Source: Membranipora membranacea (lineage: Eukaryota; Bryozoa; Gymnolaemata; Cheilostomatida; Membraniporidae). From it: DNA of 64,000 nucleotides. This document shows, in pieces, positions 810-54,562 of the stretch. Position 1 is the stretch's first letter. Every line of letters starts with the position of its first letter. Below the pieces are notes generated by a model. The model was not told the DNA's origin. It did not search any database and worked only from the letters and a program-made list of their open reading frames with translations. Location: the NCBI GenBank assembly GCA_914767715.1, contig OU612067.1, positions 32,650,162 through 32,714,161 of the forward strand. The letters run 5' to 3'. Both the position numbers and the translations under genes were made by a program.

Positions 810-868
810 GCACAACCAATGAACTCCCTCTCCCCCAGGAAGAACAAGAGGGAGTTAATTGGCACAAC
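810..868. mobile_element. 45-bp hairpin element with 7-bp target duplication
   Basis: The element at 817-861 starts CAATGAACTCCCTC and ends GAGGGAGTTAATTG. These arms are inverted repeats with one mismatch, around a C/A-rich loop. It is flanked on both sides by the exact 7-mer GCACAAC (810-816 and 862-868). It begins CA and ends TG like the other short hairpins in this window. It has no coding capacity. The flanking duplication is read directly; a transposition origin is inferred. Confidence 0.7.
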
Positions 869-948
869 ACACCAACTACATTTTGTCATGTGGTGATCCA
901 ACATAACTATTTATTAACTACTTTCAATTTAATGTTTACATATATAAA

Positions 949-980
949 CATACATCAAGGAGTTAACTCCTTGCATACAT
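949..980. mobile_element. 18-bp perfect palindrome with 7-bp target duplication
   Basis: CAAGGAGTTAACTCCTTG (956-973) is a perfect 18-bp palindrome. It is flanked by exact copies of CATACAT (949-955 and 974-980). It is the smallest member of the CAAGGAG...CTCCTTG hairpin family. Its perfection together with a site-specific flanking duplication argues for insertion rather than chance. Confidence 0.7.
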
Positions 981-2160
981 CCATAATCTACTATTTCAGG
1001 TATCAATCATTATATATCATATCTGTCTATTCTTTAAAATATTGATTGATACATCGGCTTGCTACACTCGATATTATAATTAGTTAGTGACATGAGCCCA
1101 TGGGATGCAAGTCCCAGGGGCCCATGATCAGTGGGGTCTCAGACCAATGAATGAATGATCTAATGAACTCCCCCATTGCTCAGACCAGGCCCAAAGAGCT
1201 CGGGTCCAGCTAACTCCTTGCTCCGACTCTTCTGCCACCCACTGCCAGTTGAGTTAGTTATCTCTTAGCAGCATGTAAAATATTGTTTCACAGAATGCAT
1301 TTGAAAAATTCCTAATTATGACATTACCTTGCTGTAGTAGTCAATGAAAATTTTCCAAACAAACAAAACCAAGTATATAATATCCGACTTACTTTTTGCA
1401 ACCTGGAAGGATATTATCTTCTCCGCTAACAGACTTGTGTTATGAACTTTGGACTTTCTTTACATAAACACAGACTTTCAAATTGCCTTTTTTATATTTC
1501 GAAAACATATGTCTATTCAAGGATCCTTGACCTTATGATCTAAGAAATAGTCAATGTTTTCAGAGTTGTCCTCTTATATTCCAGGTGGGGACAATTATAA
1601 GGCAATTGTTGACTAACAACTATTATAATATTATGCAAATAGGGAGGGCGAAAGCCGCAAGTCATGACGTTAGAGTGTTCTGATCATGGACTCTATATAA
1701 TCCCTAGACAGGCTAATAGCATAAAAACTGTCATACTAAGTTAGTTTGTGCGCAAGCGTGATAGTTTACTATATCTGCATTAATGAAATAATCTCAATAA
1801 TCAAGGGACGAACAGAGTTATATCAGACCCCTATTGCTTAAACGCAAGAAAAATCGTTGAATGTATGTAAAAGACCTTTCCACACAAGATTGTATAAATA
1901 ATATGTCTGTTTAGACAAAACTTAGATCAACAACTTTTAAAATAAGTTGGAATAATCATTGAAACGAATTCAGCCTCAGCACTACTATAAGCAATGCGAA
2001 AAAAAGCTACTGCAAGTAATAACTATTATTTTTTAGGTAAGCTGAATCTAAACACCACCATCTTCATTGAGTTCCACAAAGTGATCCCTAGATGTGTCAG
2101 AACACACGAGTAGGGCGATCAGGTTAGTTTGCTAGTTGTCAGTGTTTACTACAAAATGTG

Positions 2161-5100
2161 TTGTGGGAATTTTTGGTCATTGCAGAAGGAATTGTTGCTG
2201 CTCATTAATTCAAGTCTTCTCTGGCTGACAGAGACGTTAATTAGTGATTCGGACTGGGTTCTATACAAATAGATGTTATTCATACTACTACCCTCATTTT
2301 ATCTCACACCAGGAGCTGATGCGCTGAGAGGAGATTTGACATCCATGATGACTTATATGAAGTCCTTCTATTCATATGGTGAGTCTGGAGAGAAACTACT
2401 AACTGGCCTAGTAGGAAGGATCTCAGAAATACAACCGGGGACACCAGGATCAGTGTGAATAGGAAAATGCTGAAGGCAGACTTGGCTAAGTTTGACTTCT
2501 GCCCAGATTCAAAACTCGAGGACTGCGGATTCAAAGTGGATGTGATAAAACAGATTTACCGATTCCCATCCATTATGTTGTTTGATCTTACTACACTTCG
2601 GGGAATCTCAGGAACGACTTCATGGGAGTCTGCAGGAAGGCTTCTTGCTCGAGACAAGATATCAACGGATCTTTACGAGAAGCTAACATTCCTGTTAGCT
2701 TGTGCTTGTTACATTAGGCTATCAGCGTATCTCTGTCATGACTCTCATGATGACCGGATCTCAGTGGCACAGAAGTCATCTGCAATGGCCGGCGATCAAC
2801 CCAAACAACGCGCTCATCAGAGATGGTATGTCCCAATTGGCCTGTTTTCAGCAATGAGTGATCAGTTGATCCCTTTGAAAAAGAGTCTTGCCCAGATAGA
2901 CGTAGAGAGTGTGGTTGATCTTTGTCTCCCAGACACAGTCAGCACGAACATCAACATAGTACGTGCTCAAACTTTGCATAGCTGTGGGAGGTACACTGAT
3001 GCGTACAAACATTTGATGGATTTGTATGGAGATGATCTCCTCAGTAAGCCCAAGCTATTTATTGAGAGAATCAGTAACACATCAGATCAGGTATACGAGA
3101 CCCTTGTTCTAGTATCAGATGTGCTATTCAAAAGTAGCTATTACACAGCTGCGCTAGAGTTCTCTATGTGTATTCATGAAAAAGATAGACATCTTAAGAG
3201 CATCAAGATGGTAGCAGACTGTTTATCAGAACTGTCACGATTCACAGAAGCGCTTGATATTCTTCAATCCTCCACTCATGATTCCGGCGATATAGACATC
3301 AGGTTAGGAAATGTGCACCATAGGTTGGGAAATAACCCAAAGGCTGAAACATGTCTCATCTCTGCACTGCAGAAATATTGTGAACAAGCCTCATTTGAGG
3401 AAGAAATTGACTACTACGGCAATGTGATAGCCAGGACTAAAACTGAGTTTGAAGATTTGTCTGCACTGTCGCCAGCTGGCCGATTAGCATATATACAAAA
3501 TGCATGACCTGATGTAGCAGAGGCTGTTTCTAGAATGGGATTTTTCTATTTCTGTCGTTGAGATTATGAATTGGCGGAGAAATACAATGACAAGTATATA
3601 GAACCAGAACTGTATGGAGGAGAGGCACTTGTCATTGAAGCGGTAGTTGCTCTATGTGGGACATGACTCATGTCGCAACAAGGTCCGAAACAAGAAGAAA
3701 TCTTTATCAAGTCTTTAGCACTGTGAAAAGAGATATATGGCGAGGGGACTAACCACAGAAACATTGCTACTCTGCTTGGTAACCTTGGTCGTTGTTATCG
3801 CAGTATGAATCAATATCAAACATCTAAGGGATATTTTAAGAGGGCACTAAATATGGTGGAAAGTCTTTACGGCGAGACTGTGAATAATGTTACAATATCA
3901 GAGCTGAAATGCGAGATAGGCTGGTGTTATAACCAGACTTAGGAGTATGTGAAGGCAGAAGAGTGGCTTACTGAGTCTCTGAACATGTACCGACGAATCT
4001 ATGGAGATCAGAGCTCCCATAACGTTATTGCTCATGTAATTTTCATATTAGGGGTGAATCTTCAGGATATGAACCTTATTGACAAAGCCCAACAACACTA
4101 TCAGCAGGCACTGACTATGCATGGGAGTAGAGAGGAGTCTGATGAGCGTAATGAATGGATAGCAACTGTGTTGAGGACCATAGGAGGTGGTCACAAGGCA
4201 GCAAGGAGATACGATGTAGCGCATGAATATTACGCCAGATCATTAAAAATATATCAGGACATTTATAACACCAAGGGCCACATGAATGTTGCCTATGTAT
4301 TAGCTGCAATTGGAGATAACTTTAAATTTCAGCGAAAGTATACAGAAGCAGAAAAGTTCTACAAGCAGAGCCTCAGTCTGAAGAGAAATTTAGAAGAAAC
4401 TGGTGAACAGTTGGATCTTACTGCTGATCTACACAACCTCGGTCGGATCTACACAAAAATGAAGAGATTCACAGAGGCATTGGAAAAACTCATGGAAGCT
4501 TTAATAATAAACCAAACAAAAAATGAAGGTAATGCATCAACAGATGAAGCCGATACGCTGAGTGCTATCGGTGATTGCTACAAGGATATGAGAAAATATG
4601 AACAGGCTGATGCGTTTTACTCCCGTTCTCTTGAGATTCACAGATTGATTCTCACAGCTGATAAGGACAGACTTTCTTTGGCTAGGAAACTCCGACACCA
4701 TGGAATAAGGTATAAAAATATCAAAAAGTATACCACTGCGTCCATCTATCTGTATGAGTCACTGAGCATATGTGAAAACATATCAAAGAGTTATGATGAA
4801 GATGAAGCCATGACTCTGAAGGAAATCGGTAGCAACTGTCACGCAATGCAACAGTGTACTGAGGCTGAAGAGTAATTCACAGCAGCATTGAATATTTTTA
4901 GATGTATTCATGGCGACAACCATGTAGATGTTGCAGATACACTTCATTTCTTGGGGTCTTCTATGTCTGATAGAAGAGAGTTTGATCAGGGTCAGGGTTA
5001 TATGAAACAAGCTTTACACATATTTACTGAACTTGCTGAATCAAACGCCAACTCGAATAGAAAAGCAACATTATTAAATAACCTCGCTAGCAGCTACCAA

Positions 5101-5649
5101 GAACAAGGACAGTATAAAAAGGCCAGAGACGTGTTCCAAGAGGCTTTAGCTCTGGAAAGGTCGATATGCGGTGGGGACAGAAATCATGAGGATGTAGCTT
5201 TCAGTCTCAGTAAACTTGGTGACAATTATATCGATCTCGGGGAATTCGCAAAAGCTGAAAATTTCTTGAAACAATCGCTAACGATGTACAGGGCAGTGTT
5301 AGGTAGTGAAACAAACCATCTTGATGTCGCTACATTTCTCAATCTTCTCGGGGTAACATGTAACATACAGGGGAAATTCGCAGACTCAGCAAGATACCTG
5401 CAGGAAGCTGTAGACATGAACTGTGCGCTCTATGGTCATAATAGTGAAAGTGTAGCAAAGCAGCTCAAGAACCTGTCACTAGTTTATCAGAATGCTGGAA
5501 ATATGGAAAAAGCCAAAGAGAAAGGGCAGGAAGCTCTGGACATCTACCTTACTGTTAATCCTGATCATGATGACGTCACATGGCTGTATAGTCTCCTTAC
5601 CCCAGATAATGTTTCTCACCATAAGCGACCATGTTGTCTGATTCTGTAA
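2161..5649 (+). pseudogene. Kinesin-light-chain-like TPR protein, interrupted by in-frame stops
   Basis: One reading frame runs without a frameshift from about 2401 to the terminal TAA at 5647-5649. It encodes a long array of about 42-residue tetratricopeptide repeats of the kinesin light chain/NPHP3 type, with recurring 'A..YY..SL.I' and 'H..VA..L..LG..Y' patterns. The frame is broken by stops at 3505, 3559, 3664, 3724, 3940 and 4873. Each fits a single C-to-T change from CGA, CAG or CAA; for example the stop at 3724 sits where 'SLALRKEIYG' is expected. A protein-like continuation upstream, to about 2161, adds stops at 2206, 2242, 2245, 2317 and 2380. No introns are seen over 3.2 kb. The last four residues are CLIL, a CaaX-type prenylation motif. 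TPR arrays of this class are protein-interaction scaffolds. It is probably a decayed paralogue; longest open blocks are 2455-3507, 3949-4875 and 4888-5649. Start not determined. Confidence 0.8.
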
Positions 5650-6956
5650 CTCAATCTATAACTTGCAGTTCCATGTTGGTATGGGCGATTATCAATAGCA
5701 TTATAGTCTTCTCAGATATGGTTTTAGCTGGCTCTCATATCAATGACCGTACCTTTTTGTTTGTTTTAGTACCTGAATGCTTCTATCGTCTAACTGTCAT
5801 ATGAATGCGCTTGAGTCATCATGTTCTTTTTAAAGTTCTCTTTTTCAACCAAAGCTTCTACGCATATTTTCTGTTAGAAGCCTTTCTTCTTGACTTAGAC
5901 CTGCACATATATATAAGAGTATGTGTAGGCAACTTTTATATCCTATACAATAATATTGTACACAAAATGTTACAATGCAATAAGCAAGAAGTTTCAAAGT
6001 ATTGTGAAGTTATTCTGAGGAAAAATGTGGTTAAAGCTGTTAGACAAGGCCATAGAGTCAAAATAATACTTTTATCAGCACAATGCACTTTTTGAGGATA
6101 CTTATATGAGTTAATTTTTGCTTTACATGTAATATAACCTTATAAATACTCTTTTTATGAAACAATAATGGAAACTTAAAACTACGTTTTATTGGAACAA
6201 CAACACACTCGTAGCATTGAAAACGACTGTCATGCGGTGGGAGGGTCAACGCAAAGTCACAATAAAAAATCAGATCTATGCAAACCTCCGAAGCCAATTT
6301 TCCAGGCGGCAGCAAAACTTAAATAGCAGCTTTGCTTAAATCATTGTTATATACAGGTGGTATATTGCAATTCTTTTTGGCTAATTATGCTAGCAGACCC
6401 ATAAAATCTTTTCTAATACTGATTCCAACATGCTGTTTCAGATTTTGAATGTTTCAAAACCATAAGAGCATTTTTTTTATCACTTATTCTTTTGCCAGAA
6501 GCACTTTTGGCAATCAGTCGCTTATTTTGCAACATTATGTAAGATACATAGTTATCATTGCGATCAGTATGAAAAACTCTACCGGGTTAAAATGTCTATC
6601 CACCTAATTTCATGAATGGAGGTGAAAGATAGGGGGAGGCTGCCACCAGACTAATCTCAGAGTTGTCCAAATCCGAATGTATTATGGTATCCTTGACCTT
6701 TCACAACACCACAAAAATATTGTGGAAAGAGTTGAGCGGTAGTTTGAACGCCTGATATACACTGTAACATCTACATACCTTGACTGGTATTGCTGATACT
6801 TTATCGTTCATATGTATCTGGTCCATTTCTGATAGCAGAAAATCAGTTTATACCTTTATTTAGTGGGGACAACTCCAGTTCACCATGTCGTCTGCATTTC
6901 ATTCATCCAATCTAAAGATTCTGAAATGATACACGGACTCCTTCACATCAAACTTC
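5650..6956. other. Intergenic, no gene recognised
   Basis: AT-rich sequence downstream of the TPR pseudogene. A 96-codon open frame at 5805-6095 has hydrophobic, low-complexity content, no recognisable family and no splice context, so it is not called. Nothing else is supported. Confidence 0.5.
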
Positions 6957-8817: not shown

Positions 8818-10324
8818 ACACTAGATGAATGGCTTAAAAAGCTCCAATTAGTGCTAAGTTGATGACCTGCTTCCAGGAAAACATAATTGGAGACATTAAA
8901 CCCTGTCACCTGATATCAATCACACTTGAAGAAGGTATTTATTACAAAAGTATAAATTATTTGTTGATGTAGCAATTACATGAAGATCTGCAGCAAATAT
9001 TTCTAGAATAATGAGCAGACATAGTATAACATGATTTGGCTACGGATAGATCATCCGGGGATCATTATAAGGTCTCATAGCAGTCACATGGTTACATTCC
9101 TACCCGCTGACAGATATAACACACAGTACGGACAGAGACATCAGATATCAGCAATCAGACACAGCAGCAGATAAAGGAAGAGAAATCAGCTACTGTAAGC
9201 TGTAAATATAGAGGTGAGAGATGATTAGTTTTACTCCTTTATTTAGAAACAGTATTTTAGTAGTAAGGTATGCACATACTACATAGGATACAACTAATAT
9301 TAAACGTACAAGTATGGAAATATATTATGTACATTGGTAGAGCAATCAATTAAATGGCGCAGTTCTCTCAGAAAAAAAATCAAGAGTACGAGAGCAACAA
9401 ACCAGCGTATCGAATCAGTTTTTCGACTAGTATCACCAATCAAATCAAAAAGTGGGTCTGATTCACTTACCTGTGAACAGAGTTGTTCCCCCCTGAGTAA
9501 TATAAGATTCCTAATCATACTCTAGGAGGGGGGGGGGGGGAATTAATGTCTATGTGTGCAAACCAGAAATAGGATAGTGGATAGTCACGAAGCTTCAGAA
9601 CTTCATAATTTTAGACGGAGCAACCAAACAGTCGAATCTCTCTAGTGTGAGAGAATGCAACATGAGTGTTGGCTTTAGATAAAGCTTTAGTTTGTATTTT
9701 AATCAAAGTTATTCCTCCGACAGAGTAAGACCAATAGTTCGATATGATAGAAAAAGAAATCAAATTTTTCTATCATGAAATTATTCTGCTTTTAAATAGA
9801 ATGGACATCTTTTCAACACTCAACAGTCTGATTCCAACTGTCACGCACAAAAAATCTCAACACAGTTGGGGAATCTTACGGCATTCAAACAGGTTGACTT
9901 GTGAATTATTACAACATGATTTGCTATTAAGAGTATTTTTTTGGCACATATTTATCTCTAAAATACCACGTTAGTATCGTATTTGCAGCTCTAGTCAGAC
10001 TCAGAGGTAGTGATATGTGAGTTTGCAGACAGTAGAACAGAGGTAAGAGGTAGTCACTTATTGATCAGACTCGGGATCTCGGCTTAGTAAATTCTCTATT
10101 CATGATGGAGTCGTGAGCAAAAGCATTTCCTATAGAAACCTGTCAATATAAATATAAAAATGTCAGCTGAATACGAGACAGGCGCACCAGGTCACCAGAC
10201 TTAACTTTATTACTTTCACGTGTAAGCTGCCTGATACAGGGGACCAACCATTGATAGGAGTTCATGAATCAGTGGTAAAATCATAATTAATGTATATTAA
10301 CTCAATGGATAAAAAACACTGTAT

Positions 10325-10470
10325 GGCTATTGGTAGTTTAAGTGCTCAAACGGTGCAAGATGCTGGTAGAGGCATTTCATTATCAACCACTTTCCGAGGG
10401 GTAAGTGGTTGATAATGAAATGCCTCTACCAGCATCTTGCACCGTTTGAGCACTTAAACTAGGCTATTGG
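10325..10470. mobile_element. 128-bp fold-back element with 9-bp target duplication
   Basis: Perfect 59-bp inverted arms at 10334-10392 and 10403-10461 enclose a 10-bp loop. The ends read TAGTTTAAGTGCTC inward. The element is flanked by exact copies of GGCTATTGG (10325-10333 and 10462-10470). Nine-base duplications are typical of Mutator-like DNA transposons, so this may be a non-autonomous derivative; the assignment is inference. The terminal TAGTTTAAGTGC is shared with the element at 22259-22405. Confidence 0.8.
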
Positions 10471-10747
10471 CTAATATATATCTAGTATCGCTATGTTGGT
10501 GATGCCATTCCCATGTGTCAGATGCTGAATCTAAAGACCTTGCAGATTTAATGCTATGCATTGATCGATGTCCCAGTTACAACTTTCTATAAGGGGCCAG
10601 TTATGTTCTCAATAATAGTCCACAAATAATATCAGTGGGAGCTTCCCTTAATGGAGCTTGAATTGATCAAACCCGAGTCTTTGAAGGATCATTGAGGCAT
10701 AACCAAGTGTTGTGAAAAGGATTAAAGGTCGACCCTGATGTACAACA

Positions 10748-10757
10748 GTATATATAG

Positions 10758-10790
<33 letters not shown>

Positions 10791-13035: not shown

Positions 13036-13074
13036 GTGCAGCCAAGGAGTAACCCTGTTACTCCTTGGTGCAGC
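13036..13074. mobile_element. 25-bp CAAGGAG hairpin with 7-bp target duplication
   Basis: The element at 13043-13067 starts CAAGGAGTAAC and ends GTTACTCCTTG, a perfect 11-bp stem with a 3-bp loop. It is flanked by exact GTGCAGC copies (13036-13042 and 13068-13074). Same family as 949-980. Confidence 0.75.
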
Positions 13075-14104: not shown

Positions 14105-14248
14105 CTACAGGCCATGGGCCCGTGGGACTTACATGTCTTTACTTTGCCAATGTCCACTATCAACCACCCAAATGGTGTTTTTTGGGTGGTTGATAGTGGA
14201 CATTGGCAAAGTAAAGACATGTAAGTCCCAGGGGCCCATGCTACAGGC
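14105..14248. mobile_element. 128-bp hAT-like fold-back MITE with 8-bp target duplication
   Basis: The inverted arms at 14113-14172 and 14181-14240 begin CATGGGCCC and are nearly identical over 58-60 bp. The element is flanked by exact CTACAGGC copies (14105-14112 and 14241-14248). The 8-bp duplication fits hAT or P-like transposons. Partial relatives sharing 'ggttgatagtggacattggc' or 'aagtccca.gggccca' lie at about 13905-14000, 14281-14370 and 1090-1128. It has no coding capacity. Confidence 0.8.
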
Positions 14249-14848: not shown

Positions 14849-14867
14849 AACTCCTTGCCAAGGAGTT
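14849..14867. repeat. Inverted-order CTCCTTG/CAAGGAG palindrome
   Basis: AACTCCTTGCCAAGGAGTT is a 9-bp stem with a single-base loop. Its halves are in the opposite order from the CAAGGAG...CTCCTTG elements and no 7-bp duplication flanks it. It may be two abutting element halves or chance. Confidence 0.4.
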
Positions 14868-15517: not shown

Positions 15518-15549
15518 CTCAGACCAGGGAGAATTCTCTCTGCTCAGAC
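15518..15549. mobile_element. 18-bp CAGGGAG hairpin with 7-bp target duplication
   Basis: CAGGGAGAATTCTCTCTG (15525-15542) is a palindrome with one mismatch. It is flanked by exact CTCAGAC copies (15518-15524 and 15543-15549). It begins CA and ends TG like its relatives, with CAGGGAG in place of CAAGGAG. Confidence 0.7.
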
Positions 15550-22218: not shown

Positions 22219-22258
22219 TAGAGGAACTTAACTCTTCCCATTTTCACATCATATCATA

Positions 22259-22860: not shown

Positions 22861-24186
22861 GCGCTACCGAAGCAGTATAATTGATGGAACAATGTATGCA
22901 GATTTTAGGTTCAGTCATCTCTTAAAATTATATTGCTCTACAAGTTTTTAAATACTTATATTGAATCATTCAGCTAGATGAAACATCTTATTTCGGAAAC
23001 CGCATTTGGCAGATATAGAATATTATAGGCCTACATATCTACATATAAATTGGCCTCCGTTCTCCACCGGTAAATCAGTATGACTGGTTTCATGGCCAAA
23101 GAACTTCTTTTTGTTTATCATCTCCATGCTTAGTTACTTTGTTTAGTAAGGCTAGATCTTTTCTGTGTGTGGTCCAAAGAAATGAGATTGTTGTACTGAA
23201 TATCCGCACAGCTGCGCGTAGCCAATAATTCTCAGTAATCAGTATGGAGAGAAGCGTTACGCATTCCTAACTCAGGAGGACATAGCACATCTGTATACTT
23301 TGTCATTCATAGCACTTGCAATGAAACACATATATTTGGCAATCTCCTTCTTGCTGCAGAATGCAGATATCCAAAGCGTAATGTTTTTTTGTGTAATAAA
23401 TAAGCTATAGCAAAGGCCAAAATCTAACTTTCATTATCAAAATTAAAAGGAATATTCATTGAGAGTAAAAGTAGCTTTCATTACTCAAAGGTGGAAATCA
23501 ACTGAATCTCTAGTATGAAGGCAGTTATGCAAAAACAGACATGTTACCATGTTGCCAACCTAGTGTCCTAGTTCACATGCTTCAAGCAAATATGCGAGCC
23601 ACTCCTGATATTTTGGACCATGATAATATTATTGAAACGTTTTTTTTTATCAATGTCTCCATATACATTAAAAATAACAACTTGACCTAATAAACAAAAA
23701 AATGTACAGCACAAAAATAAGACTTCAACGATGAGGACTAGGTTGTAGTATGTGATGGATAGAATGAATATTATTAGACATTACTGAGAGTTGGCTGATA
23801 AAAATTGTTTAGAAAATTGTTCTCTAGTTAGTCGTTATTTTACTGTACCTATATCCTCCTTCTATTCAGACAGGCAAAATCACCCTAGTATGATACATTA
23901 GCTATAAGTATTGCCCCAAGATTACTGCAACATACTCAGATGAAGCGCTTACCAATATTTTCATGTCAAACCCCTCATATTAGCTGATGATTTCTATTAT
24001 TCCTTATTTGTTATTTTTGGCAAGGCTCCCATCAATGAACAAAAATATTCATTGCTTATTTTCATTGCTTAGTTCATTGCTCCAATCTCATGTTTAAGCT
24101 ACCTAGATTCAGATTGCCTAATTTGTTTTAACTTTTTTATGATGCTGCGTTTTGTGTTCAGTGTTTTGCTCCATTGTTCTTATTGT

Positions 24187-26117: not shown

Positions 26118-26136
26118 CAAGGAGTAAAACTCCTTG
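26118..26136. repeat. 19-bp CAAGGAG hairpin without clear target duplication
   Basis: CAAGGAGTAAAACTCCTTG is a perfect 8-bp stem with a 3-bp loop, same core as the other elements. The flanks TACACAC and TAATACA do not match, so the duplication has decayed or was never present. It lies inside the LTR element. Confidence 0.55.
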
Positions 26137-29673: not shown

Positions 29674-29717
29674 ATACCATCACAGTGTAAGGATATGTCC
29701 TTACTCTGTGATACCAT
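29674..29717. mobile_element. 30-bp hairpin with 7-bp target duplication, nested in the LTR element
   Basis: The element at 29681-29710 starts CACAGTGTAAGG and ends CCTTACTCTGTG, arms with one mismatch. It is flanked by exact ATACCAT copies (29674-29680 and 29711-29717). It begins CA and ends TG as the CAAGGAG family does, but has a different core. Confidence 0.7.
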
Positions 29718-31112: not shown

Positions 31113-31150
31113 ACTTTAGCAAGGAGTAAAACTGTACTCCTTGCTTTTAG
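31113..31150. mobile_element. 24-bp CAAGGAG hairpin with imperfect 7-bp duplication
   Basis: The element at 31120-31143 starts CAAGGAGTA and ends TACTCCTTG (9-bp perfect stem; the outer bases AG...CT also pair). The flanks ACTTTAG and CTTTTAG agree at five of seven positions, consistent with an older insertion. It lies between the LTR element and the KYAT3-like start codon. Confidence 0.55.
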
Positions 31151-31357: not shown

Positions 31358-32755
31358 ATGAGGGCGCGCACACTATCGCTCAGTTGGTCGTTGTGCAGTC
31401 GTAAACAGTTATCAGCAGCCGGCAGTCAACTTATATCTGCAAATCATCAACTCAAAAGGAGACATATATCAACCACCAGACCAAGTATGGCATCCAGTAA
31501 ACTAGGAATGGCAGATCGGCTGAAGGGAAGCGTAGCTAATGTGTGGGTTACATTTACAGAATTAGCTCGTACTACTGGAGCTGTTAACCTTGGTCAGGGT
31601 TTCCCCGACTATCCACCTCCGGATTATGTCTGCGATGCTCTAGCTAACATCGGGAAGTCTGGTAACTTCATGCTTAACCAGTACACTAGAGGTTTTGGAC
31701 ATCCGAGACTCGTCAACGCCATCGCACAAATGTACGGCAAGTTTCATGGACGTGATTTGAACCCTATGACAGAGGTTTTGGTGACGGGTGGTGCCTACGA
31801 GAGCCTGTTCTGTATCGTACAGGGTATGGTAAACCCAGGTGATGAGGTTATTATAATCGAGCCTTATTTTGACTGCTATGAGCCTATGACAAGAGTAGCA
31901 GGGGGTAATCCTGTATTCATCCCTCTCCGTCCGACCAAGACAGGCGAAATATCCAGTGCTGACTGGAAACTTGACCCGCAAGAACTCGAATCAAAGTTCA
32001 GCTCTAAGACTAAGCTGATTATATTAAACACTCCTAACAACCCCCTCGGTAAAATATTCACTCGGGACGAGCTGACAATGATCGCTGACTTATGTAAGAA
32101 GCACGACGTTGTGTGTGTAGCCGATGAGGTATATGAGTGGATGACTTACCCTGGAGCTGACCATATAAGGATCGCCACTCTGCCCGATATGTGGGACAGG
32201 ACAGTCACCATCAGCTCAGCTGGTAAAACATTCAGCGCCACAGGCTGGAAGCTCGGCTGGACTGTAGGCCCTCAGCATCTACTCAAGAACATGATGGCTG
32301 TTCATCAGAACTGTTTATACGTTTGTTGTACTCCTCTACAGGAGGCTGTCGCTCAAGCCTTTGAGATAGAGAACGCTCGACTAGACGACAAGGACAGTTG
32401 TTATATGTACACCTTACCTAACGTCGAGCTGCTGCCTAAGCGTGACAGAATGGCTGCAAACCTGAAGAATGCAGGACTGATACCTACAATACCCGAGGGC
32501 GGATACTTTATGCTGGCTGACTGGTCAAAGCTCGGCGTCACGGACGAGATGATTGAGGACGGTACAGATGATCCTAAGGACTTTAAGTTTGTCAAGTGGC
32601 TTTGTAAAGAGAAAAAATTGGCAGCCATACCTCCGAGCGCCTTCTACAGTAAAGAGCACAGGCACTTAGCTGAGAATCTTGTCAGGTTCTGTTTCTTCAA
32701 GAAGGATGAGACTTTAGACAACGCTGCTGCAATACTTAAATCATTTCAGAAGTAG
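31358..32755 (+). CDS. KYAT3: Kynurenine--oxoglutarate transaminase 3-like, intronless
   Basis: A single 465-codon frame from ATG 31358 to TAG 32753-32755 encodes a class I/II PLP-dependent aminotransferase of the kynurenine aminotransferase / cysteine-S-conjugate beta-lyase group. It transaminates kynurenine to kynurenic acid and can cleave cysteine conjugates. Visible: substrate loop NLGQGFPDYPPP (77-88), GGAYESLF (144-151), NTPNNPLGK (224-232), ADEVYEW (255-261; Asp256 and Tyr259 contact PLP), and SSAGKTFSATGWKLGW, with Lys290 as the Schiff-base lysine. The first 43 residues are Arg/Ser-rich without acids, like a mitochondrial presequence; Met44 and Met51 could start a cytosolic form. KYAT1 versus KYAT3 rests on overall impression. 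It has no introns, although its neighbours are intron-rich. A retrotransposon insertion ends 265 bp upstream of the ATG. Confidence 0.92.
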   Translation: MRARTLSLSWSLCSRKQLSAAGSQLISANHQLKRRHISTTRPSMASSKLGMADRLKGSVANVWVTFTELARTTGAVNLGQGFPDYPPPDYVCDALANIGKSGNFMLNQYTRGFGHPRLVNAIAQMYGKFHGRDLNPMTEVLVTGGAYESLFCIVQGMVNPGDEVIIIEPYFDCYEPMTRVAGGNPVFIPLRPTKTGEISSADWKLDPQELESKFSSKTKLIILNTPNNPLGKIFTRDELTMIADLCKKHDVVCVADEVYEWMTYPGADHIRIATLPDMWDRTVTISSAGKTFSATGWKLGWTVGPQHLLKNMMAVHQNCLYVCCTPLQEAVAQAFEIENARLDDKDSCYMYTLPNVELLPKRDRMAANLKNAGLIPTIPEGGYFMLADWSKLGVTDEMIEDGTDDPKDFKFVKWLCKEKKLAAIPPSAFYSKEHRHLAENLVRFCFFKKDETLDNAAAILKSFQK

Positions 32756-35700
32756 ACACTGATCGCACATAACAAGAAGTGGAATCACTCCTATCAGTGC
32801 AGCTATGCTCAATTACTCACAAACTTTTATCTACAGTGCTGTACCACATACACATACAATGTAATTATACATACGATAGTTCTGTCGAGCACTACTATAT
32901 GCAAGTTTTGCCGATGATTATAGTTTCATATAATGCTATTTTGTCTGATGATGATATGAGACCTGCTTCATGGCAGCTTTTTATACTGAATATAAGTTTG
33001 CTTTGCAAGGAATCGAGTTTGTTATTTGATCAGCCTGTGCGCCATTATTCAGGAAGTAAGTCTAGATTTGAGCCATGTTTTAGGAGCAGTGCTGCAGGAT
33101 TGATAGGAAAGCATTGCATTGTCTATATATTCTCACTCCTCTACATCTTAATGTGCTATTTATAGATAGTCGGGGATTGTTGGTTTGTATTTTCCAGTCC
33201 ATCCTGGTTGTGTTGTCTATATGGGCATAATTAGAGTTGGCTGGCAGTGCACTGCAAAGTATTCAATCATATCGTAGTTTGTTGTCGACAGTTTCCGAGC
33301 AATTTATTGACATTCTAACTCAGAGTATAAATAAGGTGATTCCAACTACAGCAGTATAGTACGTGTTACTGACAACACATTATAGGATCCTCCCATGATT
33401 AATGATTATATGGGGTCAATATATGTGGCATGTTTATGCCATACCTTCAAGGTTATACACTGAACATGGCCGTAGTTGAGCAAATACTTTGAGCGTGTGA
33501 AGTGGCCCCAGATTGGATATTGTAAGCCCCTCCTGTGGAGTTTGGGGTTAATCTCTCTCTCTTAATTTTCATGATATAAATAGCTAATGGGAAGTCCCAA
33601 ATGAGCGTGTTATTGAGTGGAACATTCAATTATAGCATATTTAGGCCACTCATTTGAGAATTTTAGGGGAGGCAGAGTATCCCTGCCTCACCTAGAACTA
33701 CAGCCCGCTGAACCATTCAGCCCTGCTGTACAGTAACTCCCTGGCCCGCCTTATCAGCAAAGAATATAAATACTGCTATCAGTACAACGCATAACATTAT
33801 ACATGGTGTACTTGTAAAGGCCTTTTAGTGATTTATGATGCTGAGAGATCTTTATTTTGGTGATCTGACACTTCATCGGCAGACATATGACTTGATCGGT
33901 CTATGTTATGATCTGGCTGTATCTAAACATCCTACATGTTTGTTCATATGGCCTTATCATGACCAGCTTTGTATCAAGTGCTTCTTTCTGTATATGATAT
34001 GTATATATAGATGTGACATGTGTTAATGTGATGCTCAAAATTCACAAAATTCTTGTAGTATAATAAGAATGGCATCAAAAGTCTAGCTGTTATTATATAA
34101 CCAGGTACCTTTTCCCAACTATTGCATCATCACCGGCAAAGTACAGTAAGAATTTAGGAAGCTTGTTATTTGATACCGCTGGCTTAACTTAACACAGCAT
34201 AGTTTTTCTTCACAAGTTAGTCAAAACAAAGAATTTTCTCGTCTTTTGCCCTGGCTTTGTTACTTGCAGGAACACGACCATGGCCCTATAAATTTAGGCC
34301 GTATGTGTTCATTTTATCATTTCACTGCACCAGTTTACTACGCACTGAAAGAAAGCTGTAACCGGGATCTCATCATATGGAGCACATCAGACTATTTATC
34401 TGATATGTATATTTTGTTTCGAGACCGTTGCTCACATACTTTTCCGTAACCTTCCCTGAATCATTTTGATTCTATTGGGATACTTAGACCAGGTACAGCT
34501 TTCTTTCTCAGGTTTCAATGCCAACCAACAAGGAAGTACCCAAGATCCTAATTATTGGCAATGCTGTTGGGGCGCAAGTGAATTCCCATCTTGCTGGATT
34601 TTGTGGTGCTTAGGCTACCAATAACTACGTGTGTATTTTTTTCTGCATGTTATAGCAAATAACTTAGCCTTAGTTTCTACACATGAATAAGTCAATGTCG
34701 GGTATGATTAAAATAACAGCTCAGTGATAGGATATACAGCTTTGCTTTTCATCGGTTAAATTACATTAATTAGGGATAAAAAATTACTCTTGTTTCCAGT
34801 GCAGAAAAGCAAGTCTAAAAAATATTAATTTTATCATCGCTCATTGCGTGAAAAAACCAAATCAATAAATCAACTCAACGTATTGGTGTTCAGATTCGTT
34901 TTTCTTTTCATTTCTGAACAACAACAAAGTTAATCATGTCCAAGTTGTGAATTATAATGGCCAGCATTGCATTCGCTAATTAATTTTCAAGTTTCGATAT
35001 AATTGGGATTTGTACACGACAATAATCTTAAACAGCTTACGACTAGTTTTACAGTTTCAGTTCTATTCATCATAAAGCCGGAAGATAATTGTAATTAATA
35101 AGTCAATGATATAATGTCCTCTTATTGTAGATACATCTAATTGTACACTAACCACCAGCATAAGACCAAGGAGTTAGAGACTCCTTGATAAGACTAAGGC
35201 AATACATGCTGTTAGTTTTTTCAATATAAATCAATGATATGCGCTTGTTACTGTGCGATCCCCAAACTCAACTTAAGATTCTCTGCATGTACCTCAAATA
35301 TTTCATTATGTATAAATCGTTGCAGGCAGGGGTGACCTTTACCCAAAGTTGATGTTTCAGCACGACATCCTCGCTGCTATGAGTCCTTTCACATTGGCCC
35401 GATGTCTCCTCTGTAAATCATGGGACTTGTGTGATAGATTAATCTCGCTTACCCTTAACTTTTTGTTGTTGAAATTTTAGAGGCTTTTTCGTCGGCGACA
35501 TAGTCGACAATTCACCACGTTTAAATCGTTGGAGACCTCTCTAAAGCATTTAAGCTGCTCACGTCTTGCTGTCATGTAGACACACAACCTGGTTGCAAAA
35601 ATATTTGGATCTTCCGCATCAAGTTGCGTTCATCAATCGCGCTCGCTCAGAGTCTTGGGCGCCCACCCGCAGCGTAAGAATTATTTAGCCTGAGAACCTG

Positions 35701-36524: not shown

Positions 36525-39500
36525 ATGCAGCTGAAAAATCCAGAAGTCCTCGCAATGTCTGATCCTTCAGGTAGGCTGTAATATTCGTTGCTGTGTAGGT
36601 ACATATTTTGTGGGGGGGGGGCACCTCAGCCCTCACTAATTGTTTATGAACCATTCAGGCCCATGATGTTGCTAAATTATACTGATAGTGCTTCTTTACG
36701 AGTAAGACAACCGTGCTATGCGCCCACATGTAAATGTGAATGTAAAGATCTGATTATAAATGGATCTAACCACTGCAATGTACCACTGCGGGTATCGCTC
36801 ATGCTTGTCAAGTGTATTATGTGCTGGATAATTTGTATTGCAGATGATTCCAAGCCTTCAAAGGCAGCAGCAGCACAATCAGAGAAGCCCGCTGATATCG
36901 CTGCTGATACAGAGTCTGATGCTGATAGCTTCAAATCAGCGAACAGTCCGCCCACTACTCCTACCGGAGCCTCCTCTAATAGTCGCCCTACAACTCCTAC
37001 CGACACCGGAGCCTCGGGTAAAAACTATGAGCATAACGGGGCAGGCGATCATGCTAACAATGGCACAAAAAAGAACTCAAACGAAGGCCAAAAACTATCC
37101 AGTGACACAACAAAATCGATGGAAGTAGATCTGTCACCAAGTAACAACGATAAAAACTTGACAGAACTTGTAGAATCTCCAAAACCTGATGAAAGTAGGC
37201 CAACATCTGAAATGAGTTGGAATTCTGAGCTCAAAGCTTTGGAGACTAGCGGGGAGAATTCTCCCAAGCCAACAGAAAGTTTATTAGATTTGGATTGTAG
37301 CACGGATAACCCTCCTAATACTCAAACGAGCTCATCATCACAACCCGACACGGAGGATCTTGAACCTTCTCACACTGACTCTTTAAATCAACCAAAACCT
37401 ACAAATACTGATTCCAAAACAATAAATACAAACACTCTGACTGAGCAAAGTTCTGGCGGTGAGACTCTGTTGAAACCTATGGATAAAACTAATGTTGATG
37501 TTGATAGTGCAAAGGACTGTGAAGGTATGTATATAGGTGGTACTTCATGTGCTTATAGCCGCTGCGGGTACCGTACTTCATGTGCTTATAGCCGCTGCGG
37601 GTACCGTACTTATAACCGCTGCGGGTACCGTACTTATAGCCGCTGCGGGTACCGTACTTATAGCCGCTGCGGGTACCGTACTTCATGTGCTTATAGCCGC
37701 TGCGGGTACCGTACTTATAGCCGCTGCGGGTACCGTACTTATAGCCGCTGCGGGTACCGTACTTATAGCCGCTGCGGGTACCGTACTTATAGCCGCTGCG
37801 GGTACCGTACTTATAGCCGCTGCGGGTACCGTACCGTACTGTACTTCCAAAACTATACTTCCTAAGTATTAAGGCTAAAACTTTGTTATCCGCTTTGGCT
37901 ATAAATGTTAGTAATTATGAGCTCCCAGTTCTACTCTTGGATTCTTAAATCTGGGTGAGTGATGACTTGTATGCACTCCACAGGCTTGTAATGTGATTTC
38001 AGTGCCTAAGGACCCTGTCTCAGAAGGTAAAAACAGTGAAACAGCAGCAGTAGACTCCAAGTCTAACAATGATGGGGACACGATAGGGGATGGATCAAAG
38101 GCTACTACTAATAAATATACACCACAGTAAGTCTAAATTAAGTCCCAACTTTATACTTTATTGGATGCTTTTGAAACTTTGATCCATGCAAAGGAAAATA
38201 AGCTCCTCACATGAATGAATAAATGATCAGCTTTCTCAGACAGAGTCTAAACTGAAGCCAATCTTTAAAATTGTGTGTCTTGAGGAGGGGGGGGGGCGAC
38301 CCGATCTTCTATTGATAGAGAGTGATCTCAAATTACTGCAATCAACAGTCCTCATACTTGAAGAGCTGAATCTGTTTTAGTTTGCGAAATTTTTTTGGTG
38401 CAGGATATACCCCAGCTACAATTTTTAACAAACAATATGTTCGAGGTAGGAAAACATTTTTATCAGCTAAGTGCCACACGACTTGTTTTTTAAACAGTCT
38501 CATACCTCATACATCAGACTCCTAAATGACAACCCCTGCTTACAGTTACCATAATTTTGCTTCATCATTGATGATATGCAATAAAACAATCTCTCTCTCT
38601 ACAGTATAGAGAGGGTGTATATGACAGTTATTCGCTGTTAATATTGTGCCTCGGGTTGGCTTTCTTGCTACTAAATAATATTCTCTCAGAACTTACCGAA
38701 AGTAATTGCCGTAATCTCCTAAGAGATGATTTTGATAAATTGAGAGCGGCACACTCTTATGATGTTTTGTCTGTTTCGTCACTGCAGTTGTATCACTAGA
38801 TTTCTTTCCGTCACATATACTAACATATAATTTGATTACTTTTATAAGACAGCAGAAAGTCACCGAACCCCTAAGTGCAGAGAAGAACGAGGCAAAACGT
38901 GAAACTCCGGATAAAGAGAACCAGACAGGAGGACAGAATAAGCCTGCAGTCTCTCAGGAGGGAGTAAAGACCGTCTTTAATATAGAGCCAAGTCAGAGCA
39001 CTGGACCTAATGCACAGGATATAAAAGATGGACACGCCTACCTACGCCCCATGCCTAAAGTTCTATATCAGGTTTGAAATCTAAGTATATGTCATACATC
39101 ACTCAATGATTGCCAGAGGCCTATGTATATCACTATTTATGGAACAGCCTGCCATATGCGTACCAACTGATATGTTAACATGGATCAGTAGAAATTAATT
39201 GTATCTAGCTAAGAATCTGGCCACTTGGCAACAATATATATATTGTGGAGTTTCTGCGTTGATCCGATACCGAAGACTGTTATCAGATCTGTCATATCGA
39301 TTAAAGGTGTCCTGCATAGCACTGTGCCTGATTCTTGGATATTAGCATCCTCTTTGCCATTGCTACTCCACATCAAAAATGTATTGTGGATGATAGCAAA
39401 CTTTGACGCTACTAGCATGCTTAAGATCTCTTTAACAGCGAATCCATTACTATATTCTTATTATACCTGAATCCATGTCGACGCCTCTGGAACATAATTA

Positions 39501-49300: not shown

Positions 49301-50939
49301 AGTAGTTACACTTAAAGCCTGCACCTCAGAGCAGATCTTATTGTTACCTCTTTTCTGACGAGAGTACTTCTTGCTTGAGCCACCACTGGAGGGACAACAT
49401 CCGTAGAGCAGTTATTACGTACTTTGGTCTGTAGGGATTTATCTGTGTAGAAAAGCTTGTTTGCGTTTCTCACCTACATAATTATTCAAAGGAAATACAA
49501 AATTATGGTTCAATCAGCAGCGTGTTTTCTTTATGGAGTCTTGAAACGTCCATTCTCATTCATTTTAAAATTATAGGGAAATCTGTTTTGTTGCATGACG
49601 TCAAACTGCCGGAAAGTTATCATAAGGCGGGCGGCACTTTCAGATCTAATTGCCGTTTCTGTGGTAGAAACAAAACATGAAAATAAATAATCAATGGCAA
49701 GCGAGTAAGAAGATGTGACCATAGACTTAATATACTATATATATATTAAGTCTATGGATGTGACCATGTGCTAGTTGTCAAATCTGTGCATAAAGAACAT
49801 CCAAAAAACCATTAAAGAACTTTATACATCATGATTAAGTGCTTAAGGGGCCAACTGGGTGATATAACCAAGGAGCAAATGACTCCTTGATATAACAGCA
49901 TAAGAATTAGCAAATTTTAAAGGCTAGTGGGTTTTATCACCTTGCAAGTACAGCCATTACAGCATCAAAAAATACTTGACAACAACTAACTAGCTGGCCA
50001 AATTGTACACTGGGTATGTGTTTGGTTATATATGATGAAGATAGGGTCTTCTTTTTCAGATTGACAGTAAGAAACATGTGTACGTTAACAGAACATCAAT
50101 CCCCTGAGTAGGTTCAAATCCAGGTGTGTAGTTAGTCAGTTTCTCACCAGTTATTCCCCTAGCTGTTAAACTCCCCTAGCTGTTATACTCACCAGATATT
50201 TCCCTAGCTGTTATACTCACCAGATATTTCCCTAGTTGTTTAACTCACCAGATATTTCCCTAGCTGTTAAACTCACCAGATATTTCCCTAGCTGTTATAC
50301 TCACCAGATATTTCTCGAGCTGTTTAACTGTCATCTCATCATTACTGTGATCGGCCGAAGGATAAAGTCTCTTTTTATACTCCAGCTCATTTCTTTTATT
50401 CTCTAAATTTAAAAGCTTATTCTCGTTCTCGAGCTTGTGCTCTTCTAACTGTATGTCCTGAAAAAGTAGAAATATGGAATCTGACTTATCCGGATAAGTT
50501 ACGTCGTTGGTATTATAGAGGATCCAAATAGCGGTTTTGTGTAATGTGCAAGCTAATGGTATAACTGCTAAAGGTGGATTAAAAGCTATAGTGAACGGTG
50601 GATTTTCAATTCATATTATCCTAATGGCTCAAAAAGTACTGTGACTGTCAAAAATGATTTTGATTTCAGTTATTTTTATTATACCAAAATATGCCTATGT
50701 ACATAATATAGGGCTTTATGGGCTACATAGGGCTTATCTTGCATTTCCATTTGTAAGTATTAATTGCGGGTGCATTTTCAGACTACACATTTTACCTGCT
50801 CAGTTTTCTTGAGGACGACCTCGTAGTGTTGCTTCTTTCTGTTTAGCAGAACATCAGCCTGAGCATTCTTAACTCCAGTAATCCTCTCTGACCCAGATAT
50901 AGCTCCACTTCTACGTCTCTGTATCGTCAACTCTGACAT
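46335..50939 (-). CDS. Coiled-coil protein of unknown family, nine exons
   Basis: Minus-strand exons in order: 50796-50939 (ATG at 50939-50937), 50305-50457, 49348-49473, 48883-49056, 48424-48642, 48016-48177, 47523-47656, 46847-47094 and 46335-46522 (TGA). They join with GT-AG borders and matching phases to 515 residues. The product is highly charged. It starts MSELTIQRRRSGAISGSERI. A strongly helical, coiled-coil-like stretch covers residues about 35-98 (Lys/Glu/Leu-rich, e.g. EEHKLENENKLLNLENKRNE). Further helical segments occur, such as YKEEEFQQGLKFVKDKDTEW, followed by an acidic patch (EESEEEGEDEE-like) and a lysine-rich end. There is no signal peptide or membrane segment. The style resembles ciliary or centrosomal coiled-coil proteins, but no family was recognised. 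The donor of exon 2 is tandemly duplicated (see 50148-50319). Confidence 0.85.
49712..49764. mobile_element. 37-bp hairpin with 8-bp target duplication
   Basis: The element at 49720-49756 starts CATAGACTTAATATA and ends TATATTAAGTCTATG, a 15-bp perfect stem with a short AT loop. It is flanked by exact GATGTGAC copies (49712-49719 and 49757-49764). It lies in intron 2 of the coiled-coil gene. The 8-bp duplication suggests a hAT- or P-type transposase, but the element is far smaller than usual MITEs. Confidence 0.75.
49862..49896. mobile_element. 21-bp CAAGGAG hairpin with 7-bp target duplication
   Basis: The element at 49869-49889 starts CAAGGAG and ends CTCCTTG with a 7-bp loop. It is flanked by exact ATATAAC copies (49862-49868 and 49890-49896). 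It lies in intron 2 of the coiled-coil gene, about 100 bp from the 37-bp hairpin. Confidence 0.75.
50148..50319 (-). repeat. 28-bp tandem array that repeats a 5' splice site
   Basis: On the minus strand the end of exon 2 and its donor, AAATATCTG|gtgagt, is followed by four further 28-bp copies. They place the same exon-end/donor sequence at 50277, 50249, 50221 and 50193, with a degenerate one at 50148. Each unit also repeats 'aacagctagggaaatat', a close match to the coding sequence just before the real junction. The array therefore arose by duplication across the exon-intron boundary. Only the junction at 50305 keeps the frame with exon 3; reading on meets an in-frame TAG in the second unit. 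Confidence 0.9.
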
Positions 50940-53900
50940 TATTAACACTCAGGTGTCTGTGATTGCCTATGTCTATTGAAGAATCTGGTATGGCAGTTTC
51001 GATTTACCGATTTATTCTGTGCAATATTGATGTACCTCCCGATTTATGCGTGAAAGCCTATGTTCTTTTTTTTTGCGTTTCTCAGTGACCGATCGCCCGT
51101 ATTACTGATATCACACCTGTCCAGCTTTGCAGTCTGATAGAGTCTTGTTTATGTGCTACTTCATATATTCCCAGTCAAAACACCTTTACAATAAATCTAA
51201 TTTACCAGAATGCAGGCTCATGTCTGCAGAAAATCAGCGCAATGATGTTGACCACATCTACAAAAGTTTGTTGCCAACCAAAGAAAACAAAATTTCTTAA
51301 CACACAATCAAACATGAAAGCTGACCTTGATGTAATTGTTTCACACAACTGAGACATGTAATAGTTAGCTGGCAGCAGTGTACAGTTTTATACGCTTACA
51401 TTACCTTGTGTTTAATGACAAAACTATCCATAATCAGTGGTTTGTAAGGCCATTGATTTGTAAAAATTCATTTATTGTAAAATTTTCTAAAGATGTATTA
51501 GTAGTGTTTTGATTTTTATGTAAGCACATTTTGCACTGTTGTATTTATTTAGGCTTCATATGCAATAAGAAGTTATAAGTGGCTATAGATTGGCGGATTA
51601 ATGATTTTATTTCACTTTTGAAGCGGCAGCAGGCCTGCGGCAGCTTACATCGTTACTACAAGTTGTTATTCTCAATCTCTAACAAAACTTATTATTTCTA
51701 AAACAAAGAATATAGGTCCATGAATTTGTACCCGCGCGTAGATTATAATTATGTAATATAATGCATTATTATAGTTATATTATGTTTTCATTTATCTCAG
51801 CAGGTGGTTAATATGATGAATGTTTCATATATAGAATGTTTTTGTCAGATTGAGAGCGCACAAACAGCTAAGAGTATTAGACTTAAATCCCACATCAGAG
51901 GTCTCTCCATTGTTGGGTGGGTCACTTCTTTTGATGATGTAACTTGTTTAAAGAATACTCTCTCTAATATGGCTGCTCGAAAAACAATGTTGAGCTCTGA
52001 TATTTTCATGTCACAACAGATTATATAATGTAAATCAGTCATTACACTCCAGTCACCAAGAAATCTCTTCTCTCATGTTAATTAAAATGAAAATGCTTGT
52101 TTAATCAAAAAGCTATAATAATGACTACTGCTTATCATTGTAATCGTGAAAAATAATAATTCGCATTCATTTCAACCCTGATCTCACTCAGCAAAATCTG
52201 CATGTGGATTATTATATGGATGACTCTATGAATGTTAGGGCTAAGGGCCACCCATTGAGTTATTATATACCCTATGGGGCTACCACACCATGAATGGCTA
52301 TTAGCAGATATGTCTGTTAAATAAGTGTGTCTAATAAAAAAGATAAGAAAGATTCAATATATCAAGGTACTGCCGGGGGGGGAGGGGGCGTCATGTGAAG
52401 CAAAAGTCTGGGGGGCTCAGGGGAGTGCAAGGTAGTATTTATTGTGTTATTTCCAATGTCTTGCTACTTGAATGTACAACAAAACTATAGCTAACGACTT
52501 GCATTATGTAATACACCCGCAATACAAAAGATAAATTCAACTAAGTAATTTCTATTTCTTTCACATTTTAAGACCTATATGAATCAGCGATTGTCTCTGT
52601 CCAAAGAATAGTCAATTCTCATCACAAACTTATCTAGGATATGATCATCAGCAGTTAGAAAAATGAACGTTGTTACAAAAATAAATTGCTGAGCATCAAC
52701 ATCAATGACCAGATAGATTAGCGACAGGGGTTTATTTTATCTTCAGTTTCTTTAGTTGAACATCTGCTCACTACAGAACACAGGAGATACCAATGCCAGA
52801 TTAAGTTGTAAGGAAGGGTAACTCAGGTTTCTCTTCAGTTTTCGTGTAAAACTTTCGCCTTTTACTAAAGTTTTCCGTGGAGAGGAACACTTCAATGAGT
52901 CTATAGACTAATTTTTATCACCTTCCAATGGAAGGTAACATATTAAGAAAAACTAACTCATATTTTATTGCAGCTTATTCTAACTGTATTCCCCCTGAAC
53001 TCACCTAAGGTACCTGTCTTTCAGCAAGATGGTGTTTGCCGCCAGTTGTCGCCAGATCCGACAAATTTGCAACTGTAAATACCAAAAACAATGCTGGCAG
53101 TGGTATCCTGTTAGTGGCAAGACAAAATAGTATACTTTTAAGCAAACTAGCGAGCTAAATTGTGTAATTTTAGCTACTATCTACTTCTTCTGGCGCTGAT
53201 TATACAAATTATATATCTGATGACTTTGACGATTGTTTGAGTGCAAGAATGAATTCCACAAAAATGGGAGAATCAAAAAGATTTGGAAGTAAACTGTTGT
53301 TTTATCCCTTAGTCAATGTTCACCACCAACCAGATCGAATGGAGGAACATTGAAGCATTATGACTGTCCAACATTTATGCTTCTGAAAATTTGAAGGCCC
53401 ACCACATGTTTGATATCAGTGTAAAAATAGAGAAAATTGTCACTATTTGTCAGCATTGAATTGTGCGAAGCTGTCCAAAGAGAATAGAAAAACAATTACG
53501 GAAGTTGTCCTGTCTAGCATAAATAGAAGACAACTCGAATTTAAGAATGTAGGGTAAAGTTATCTTCTCGTATACAGTTTTCTCTGACAGTTTTCTACCC
53601 AACTGTGATGAGAATCCGCGAGACTTACCATGGTGACCAAAATAATCATGGCTGCCATATGATAAGCATATCAGATTTGGAATCATAAGTGTTCACTAAC
53701 TGTCATTCCAAGGTGAGCATGGTCATTATTCTCATAAAGTTTTTTACTGAGCAAATGAGAAAGAGGGTCACTTGTGTAACAATGTCATATAGGAATCTGT
53801 TGTGCATGTTTTGTTGAATTTAGCTAGAAGCATGCATGAAAAAGCAGACATCCAATCTACTACTCTGACTTGACTTGAGCTAGCTAGGAAGGATATGATG

Positions 53901-54562
53901 ATAAGGGTAAATGAATTATTCCCAATATTGAAAATAGTTCCTTGTGGTTAATCTCCTCTCCTCTCCTAGTACCCGTTTATGAAGGACAGTTTAGATGCAG
54001 GTTGATGACTGACATCCACAGAGAGTTGTGATGTAAGATACATTCTGTTCGACTAGCCAATTTGAGAATACAATGGTATCCATTAATACAGGGAGAATGG
54101 ATTCTCCCTGATTAATACATCCAAAACTACAGTGGGTTAACACAGTCACTTGACCAAAGTAGAGGGCTGGCTACATCTATGAGCGGCATGAAGAGTAGGC
54201 AGTGCAGCATACTTACTTGCTAACTCGCTTAATTCGGACATACATATATCATCCTCCTTGTACTAGGTCTAGGAGTGAAACCTGTATGTTCATGATGATA
54301 TGCACTCTTGACCGGTCTGGGGGGTCTTTGAATTAGAAAGAGCGATGCTTTACTAAAGCAAGTTATCACTATCACATCACTCAGAATTATCACTCACTTG
54401 GTCTCTCAATTAGACAAAATCGTTCCCAAATCGCTCACCCAAAATGTATATAGTTCCATCAATGACTGAGCGATCAGATTGCAACTTTTGCTGTTTCTAA
54501 TTGAAAGACCCCTCTTGATCAGTCTGTGGGATTTTTGTATAATTACTCTGGAATTGTTGTAG
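50940..54562. other. Intergenic between divergent genes
   Basis: Upstream DNA shared by the coiled-coil gene (-) and the WD40 gene (+). A G-rich run lies near 52375-52390, and one hairpin element at 54082-54117. Frames of up to 78 codons have no recognisable content. A TAG immediately before the WD40 ATG at 54563 suggests a 5' untranslated exon somewhere in this stretch; it was not located. Confidence 0.5.
54082..54117. mobile_element. 22-bp CAGGGAG hairpin with 7-bp target duplication
   Basis: The element at 54089-54110 starts CAGGGAGAAT and ends ATTCTCCCTG, a perfect 10-bp stem with a 2-bp loop. It is flanked by exact ATTAATA copies (54082-54088 and 54111-54117). Its core matches the 15525-15542 element. 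Confidence 0.75.

Follow-up and report, generated by a model that had tools for sequence, protein, structure and literature searches.

In Drosophila, imprecise excision of P elements leaves footprints: remnants of both terminal inverted repeats (TIRs), each of about 17 nt and sometimes separated by filler, stay behind between the copies of the target duplication. The P superfamily also includes the Drosophila element 1360, which is grouped with Galileo. Here we analyze short hairpins that begin with CA and end with TG in the genome of the bryozoan Membranipora membranacea (assembly GCA_914767715.1), starting from a stretch of 64,000 nt referred to below as the window (contig OU612067.1, positions 32,650,162 to 32,714,161 of the forward strand). 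We propose, with a probability of roughly 0.84, that these hairpins are end-joined excision scars of P-superfamily transposons (hereafter scars). On this reading they would be products of a process already known and not a minute mobile element of a new type, although they are unusually clean and number in the thousands. The kind of event is known, while its scale, its cleanliness and its host appear to be new. Compared with the Drosophila P footprints, where the duplications are of 8 bp, the scars described here have 7-bp duplications, derive from at least four TIR families and occur in thousands in one wild genome.

Two other described systems share part of this pattern. Galileo, a member of the P superfamily in Drosophila, has 7-bp duplications and a palindromic target motif, GTANTAC, that lies inside a 15-bp palindrome and extends past the duplication (PMC4168063). 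It differs in its long, Foldback-like TIRs, whereas the TIR of the family termed C below is 33 bp long, as read from two copies with duplications, and the likeness to Galileo is one of duplication and target. A first-pass annotation of the window knew of no described eukaryotic element this small with 7-bp duplications, but duplications of this length are on record for Galileo (PMC4168063). The P-type miniature inverted-repeat transposable elements (MITEs) of Anopheles gambiae are short and non-autonomous with P-type ends, like the 892-bp and 1210-bp copies reported below, but have 8-bp duplications, and the main text describing them uses neither "footprint" nor "solo" (PMC1562414).

Neither P excision scars in a bryozoan nor a dispersed family of 7-bp-flanked hairpins was found among the open-licence papers listed, as judged by titles and the beginnings of abstracts, which does not prove their absence. 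Bryozoan chromosomes are said to be heavily rearranged. Transposon excision scars can be hidden by rearrangement (PMC5023962), and they are hard to find because repair varies; here a constant end motif, together with the 7-bp duplication, marks them, so that thousands are readable in this one assembly.

Hairpins with 7-bp flanks in the window and the genome

The eight hairpins that the first-pass annotation had placed between exact 7-bp repeats were all recovered with position and flanks unchanged (8/8; Table 1), as were two further copies that it regarded as having decayed or absent duplications. Its contention that such flanks are not expected by chance also stands, in that 20 dinucleotide shuffles of the window gave one 7-bp case altogether. 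When inverted repeats are defined as 14-50 bp in length with 8-bp arms, at least seven of the arm positions matching and the outer two exact, the window contains 1627, of which 119 have CA/TG ends, and exact 7-bp flanks surround 8 of these 119 versus none of the 1508 others. The excess is at 7 bp only, as the same scan returned three cases with 5-bp flanks, three with 6, one with 8 and none with 9, and the single 8-bp case is likewise CA/TG-ended.

The assembly searched comprises 339.3 Mb in 18 contigs, 11 of them chromosome-sized, with the window on contig 3; the published genome of this species is described as 339 Mb in 11 chromosomes with a 14.7-kb mitochondrial genome (PMC10290214). The pattern CAAGGAG(N0-30)CTCCTTG, which allows hairpins of up to 44 bp in total and requires 7 nt at each end, occurs at 4008 places genome-wide versus 20 for the reversed control pattern, and the interiors are variable with no conserved core. 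Among the 60 places listed of the 4008, we took all but one of entries 5 to 25, regardless of their flanks (the exception lies in locus L005 and has a 6/7 flank match). Exact 7-bp duplications were present at 10 of these 20 sites, with a 6/7 match at four and a 5/7 match at two. Thirteen 10-kb stretches chosen by position contained four sites with family ends and 6/7 or 7/7 flanks. The decay of the duplications suggests that many of the scars are old and inherited.

The hairpin ends sort into at least four TIR families, with the end motifs CAAGGAGTWA... (A), CAGGGAGAATGG... (B), CAATGAACTCCCTCTTC... (C) and CACAGAGTAAGGAYAT... (D). The exact 17-mer of family A, CAAGGAGTTARAGACTY, is found 659 times genome-wide and that of family C 889 times, with controls at 0 for both, and a further family D scar with an exact ACTAGAT duplication lies at L006:7430-7459. 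The duplication itself follows a palindromic motif: in readings of 28 sites in both orientations, position 2 is T and position 6 is A in 47 of 56, G is most common at position 1 and C at position 7 (23/56), and T and A are common just outside. A 7- or 8-bp duplication at a palindromic target, which is a trait of the P superfamily, is therefore present.

The interpretation of the 7-mers as target-site duplications of a DNA transposon is borne out both by the exact flanks and by empty sites, three of which, all paralogous, were found at the single testable hairpin. This scar (L045:627-651) sits within a multi-copy P-transposase family. The paralogs L054, L055 and L057 lack its hairpin and one 7-mer, and align to the joined L045 flanks with 97.3-98.3% identity over 296-297 columns.

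Three places show several hairpins together. L003 (C1:259686-262716) holds four exact-duplication scars of families A and C inside about 2.2 kb. At L032 (C1:978983-979224), a 42-bp hairpin encloses CAAGGGGTAACTCCTTG with its own exact GTTAGGG duplication, which is one target used repeatedly or a case of nested use. L074 (C1:24037690-24037850) is a compound scar, in which a lone CAAGGAG and then two directly adjoining family A hairpins lie between GTCATGA and GCCATGA; it would reflect either several rounds of insertion and excision at the same site or filler copied from a template.

Longer elements and P-type transposases

A longer relative with the same ends, which the first-pass annotation had suggested seeking, exists for one family. 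The family C places examined, 100 of the 889, lie on contig 1 up to 21.9 Mb, and at least five convergent pairs 0.3-1.5 kb apart are present among these listed matches. An 892-bp element (C1:4455701-4456592) has a 33-bp TIR and an exact ATTGGCT on each side, and a 1210-bp element (C1:7728568-7729777) has the identical 33-bp TIR with the flanks CTTACAT and CTTGCAT; both share their first 17 nt with the family C scars. Hence a TIR of about 30 bp beginning with CA, as is typical of the P superfamily, is present (33 bp, in family C only). A 313-bp copy (C1:5516427-5516739, flanks GTCTGTG and GTCTGCG) has one full TIR, while its other end is broken after nt 17-19. A 1518-bp pair has two full TIRs and no matching duplication, and a 1022-bp pair was rejected as a single element, being two separate scars. 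The view that the hairpin itself was the inserted element is thus not upheld: the inserted entity would be a longer transposon, such as the 892- and 1210-bp copies of family C with their 33-bp TIRs, and the hairpin would be the remainder after excision, retaining about 20 nt per TIR at most, with lopsided forms that are unlike a mobile hairpin.

P-type transposases are abundant in this genome. With 150 of 211 candidates scored, at least 134 match PF21787, compared with none in the 14 control genomes. A single open reading frame at L054, which matches the solved structure 6p5a of the P transposase, encodes a THAP domain together with helix-turn-helix, RNase H N-terminal and GTP-binding domains, so that the combination of a THAP domain with a P-type RNase H/GTP-binding transposase, a further trait of the superfamily, is found here. 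Several multi-copy groups of transposases are about 93-99.7% identical, which suggests recent activity or duplication.

Arm lengths, junctions and alternative explanations

The P transposase cuts the 3' end at the transposon border and the 5' strand 17 bp inside the 31-bp TIR, which gives 17-nt 3' extensions (PMC7776569), and the tails left on the donor flanks would accordingly be 17-nt 3' tails of TIR sequence. The family C scars resemble what such a cut would leave. Short family C pairs of 35-46 bp number at least six among the 100 matches listed, and three of the six were read: they consist of 17+a+17, 17+cag+17 and 17+ctcg+17 nt, with the exact duplications CTTTCAG, GTCCAGT and GTTGGTG, respectively. 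At the nine family C scar sites that were read, where the 313-bp copy is counted by its broken end only (its other end being a full TIR), no arm matches the 33-bp TIR exactly past nt 20, or past nt 22 with one mismatch allowed. In the window, the hairpin at 817-861 has TIR remnants of about 15 and 16 nt with about 14 bp of filler between them.

P elements also lose their middle by gap repair, and the hairpins might accordingly be internally deleted copies produced by interrupted copying from the sister rather than joins of cut ends. The 313-bp copy, in which one TIR is full and the other end breaks off after nt 17-19, might have arisen in this way. Gap repair should, however, give many arm lengths, including some past nt 20, which by exact match are seen at none of the nine family C sites, and the 1-4 bases between two 17-nt arms point to the joining of cut ends, so that we regard this origin as improbable. 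Another cut-and-paste superfamily with 7-bp duplications could equally be imagined as the source, for example Dada, which makes duplications of 6-7 bp; the P transposases would then be bystanders, and the TIRs described here are indeed without a linked transposase. We consider this quite improbable, as the 7-bp duplication, the GTNNNAC-like palindromic target, the CA ends, the 33-bp TIR and the arms of about 17 nt together fit P.

The two sides of a scar need not be alike. We fetched 20 stretches from the 100 listed family A places (of the 659 17-mers genome-wide), and none of the 21 17-mer ends in them continues into a shared element. At 17 of the 19 single sites (the compound L074 being left out), a duplication follows a short remnant of the other end, nine being exact and eight matching at 6/7, versus 0.6 exact and 2.7 with at least 6/7 for shuffled partners. 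The lopsidedness is pronounced at 11 of the 19, where only 1-4 nt lie between the 17-mer and the duplication. How the arms divide is ambiguous wherever CTTG follows a 17-mer with a terminal C, and the four bases in L060 are not TIR; the single-G sites L061 and L067 are clear. In L002, L058 and L064 the filler resembles a copy of the TIR. End joining is expected to produce scars that keep as little as 1-4 nt of the second end, whereas a mobile hairpin is not.

This asymmetry bears directly on the possibility that the hairpin moves as a micro-element in its own right, its two short ends being recognized by a P-type transposase. Such an element would account for exact duplications around intact CA...TG ends and for the recurrence of identical hairpins, a GTAC 16-mer being seen five times and a TTAA 18-mer four times among the 60 listed, although this recurrence also follows from the small palindromes that the TIR contains. 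A self-mobile micro-element or MITE should carry both ends intact and a conserved cargo to new sites, whereas we find variable interiors with no conserved core, a full arm on one side with 1-4 nt on the other at some sites, and the same ends on longer elements. In addition, P mobility in Drosophila requires end sequences of no less than 138 and 216 bp (as cited in PMC1562414), and a mobile hairpin is in our judgment very improbable. That the hairpins are chance palindromes is practically excluded by the pattern counts (4008 versus 20 places), the 889 and 659 17-mers versus 0 controls, and the shuffles.

The junctions of the family A hairpins were read in the 60 listed, of which 58 are independent, since C1:2001476 and 2002185 look like a duplicate of 960324 and 959625. 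Two TIR prefixes without filler account for 38 of the 60, while 22 need filler or carry mutations, and 56 of the 60 are no longer than 34 bp, or twice 17. The overlap at the join averages 1.9 bp versus 0.7 for free random trimming. Pairing at micro-palindromes is thus suggested but not proven, as the overlap is little higher than under a null with scar lengths preserved. Taken with the arms, the hairpins have the features of a P-type excision footprint: both duplications are kept, the TIR remnants are of about 17 nt or less, filler is optional and some are one-sided.

We propose the following course of events for the end-joined scars. A transposon with TIRs beginning with CA would enter a palindromic target, with duplication of 7 bp, and would later be excised by the transposase with a long stagger inside the TIRs, leaving on each flank a 3' tail with about 17-20 nt of TIR. 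As the TIRs are inverted copies, the two tails are able to pair at small palindromes (TA, TTAA, GAATTC), and trimming, pairing, fill-in and ligation, at times with filler, would yield a short CA...TG near-palindrome between the duplications. The cut position of the enzyme, the repair pathway and the pairing of transposases with TIR families are inferred here, with the arm lengths pointing to a cut 17 nt inside the TIR.

Several observations weigh against an origin by excision and end joining. The 17-nt limit is blurred, in that at least one arm can be read as 18-20 nt at five of the nine family C sites (L078, L079, L084, L089, L090), and several of these arms have CT after nt 17, as from a cut near 19 or from chance filler; at six of the nine, shorter arms were excluded because the sites were chosen by an exact 17-mer. 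The family A sites L072 and L076 (2/19) are without a duplication, and four of the 20 pattern sites sampled for their flanks match at 4/7 or less. The excess of overlap at the joins is small against the length-keeping null (1.89 versus 1.66, 97.5th percentile 1.87). Paralogs for the empty-site comparison are available for a single one of the 44 candidate sites. Intact elements were seen in none of families A, B and D, the family A TIR prefixes being read from hairpins, and a search for longer elements that combine ends of these four families with a 7-bp duplication found none in about 203 kb of window and loci, nor in about 270 kb when the transposase loci were included. No autonomous element with any of the four TIRs was found, and the 20 transposase loci, each spanning about 3.3 kb, show no element ends of these families, only one inserted scar (L045) and other short end-motif matches that are not palindromic.

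If end joining is correct, the scars would allow P-element activity to be dated, the ratio of excision to insertion to be estimated and end-joining outcomes to be measured at nearly identical breaks, and they serve as a caution that duplication-flanked short palindromes need not be elements. A more far-reaching idea, which we offer tentatively and hold to be unlikely on balance, is that this lineage cleared its P-type transposons mainly by excision of thousands of germline copies, leaving scars that far outnumber intact copies, with the germline breaks closed as the two TIR tails paired. Such mass excision would amount to a natural archive, spanning the genome, of the way in which one defined kind of break is repaired in an animal, and would make excision, possibly host-steered, a route of transposon loss.

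Positions of the hairpins and other features

Table 1. Putative excision scars and related hairpins in the window (positions are those of the window; the span includes both flanks).
Span	Hairpin	Left flank	Right flank	TIR family	Remarks
810..868	45 bp (817-861)	GCACAAC	GCACAAC	C	putative scar
949..980	CAAGGAGTTAACTCCTTG (956-973)	CATACAT	CATACAT	A	putative scar; ends meet at TTAA
13036..13074	25 bp (13043-13067)	GTGCAGC	GTGCAGC	A	putative scar
15518..15549	CAGGGAGAATTCTCTCTG (15525-15542)	CTCAGAC	CTCAGAC	B	putative scar; ends meet at GAATTC
24026..24086	CAATGAAC...GTTCATTG (24033-24079)	CTCCCAT	CTCCAAT		additional candidate, 6/7; weaker because its interior is repetitive
26118..26136	26118-26136	TACACAC	TAATACA	A	no recognisable duplication (old scar, or flank lost on joining)
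29674..29717	30 bp (29681-29710)	ATACCAT	ATACCAT	D	putative scar
31113..31150	31120-31143	ACTTTAG	CTTTTAG	A	decayed duplication, 5/7
35160..35194	21 bp (35167-35187)	ATAAGAC	ATAAGAC	A	putative scar
49862..49896	21 bp (49869-49889)	ATATAAC	ATATAAC	A	putative scar
54082..54117	22 bp (54089-54110)	ATTAATA	ATTAATA	B	putative scar

The window also has CTCCTTG-C-CAAGGAG back to back at 14851-14865, two family A-like ends one base apart and without duplications. At 14113-14240, a 128-bp sequence has CATGGGCCC ends that agree at 12 of 13 positions and is flanked by the exact 8-bp duplication CTACAGGC, and the ends of L043:3077-3311, which has the 8-bp duplication CATATTCA, share their first seven letters with it; the two are possibly MITEs with 8-bp duplications. 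L012:5419-5836 and L041:240-1487, with CATACTTGCCAAG ends and the exact 8-bp duplications ATAGTAGA and CACAGTGG, are a separate DNA transposon family, and an inverted repeat spanning about 4.6 kb is found at approximately 1392-5995 of L017 (C1:20000001-20010000).

The remaining features of the window are a U5 spliceosomal RNA gene at 52819-52937 on the forward strand (85.7 bits), a tandem array of a 24-bp unit at 37552-37834 that is open in three of six frames, and an aminotransferase gene at 31358-32755. By identity, the closest named relatives of the latter come from Bugula (76%) and Watersipora (67%), both bryozoans; by score, two longer proteins labelled as insect, with 58-61% identity, are placed above them, and one further record is 93% identical.

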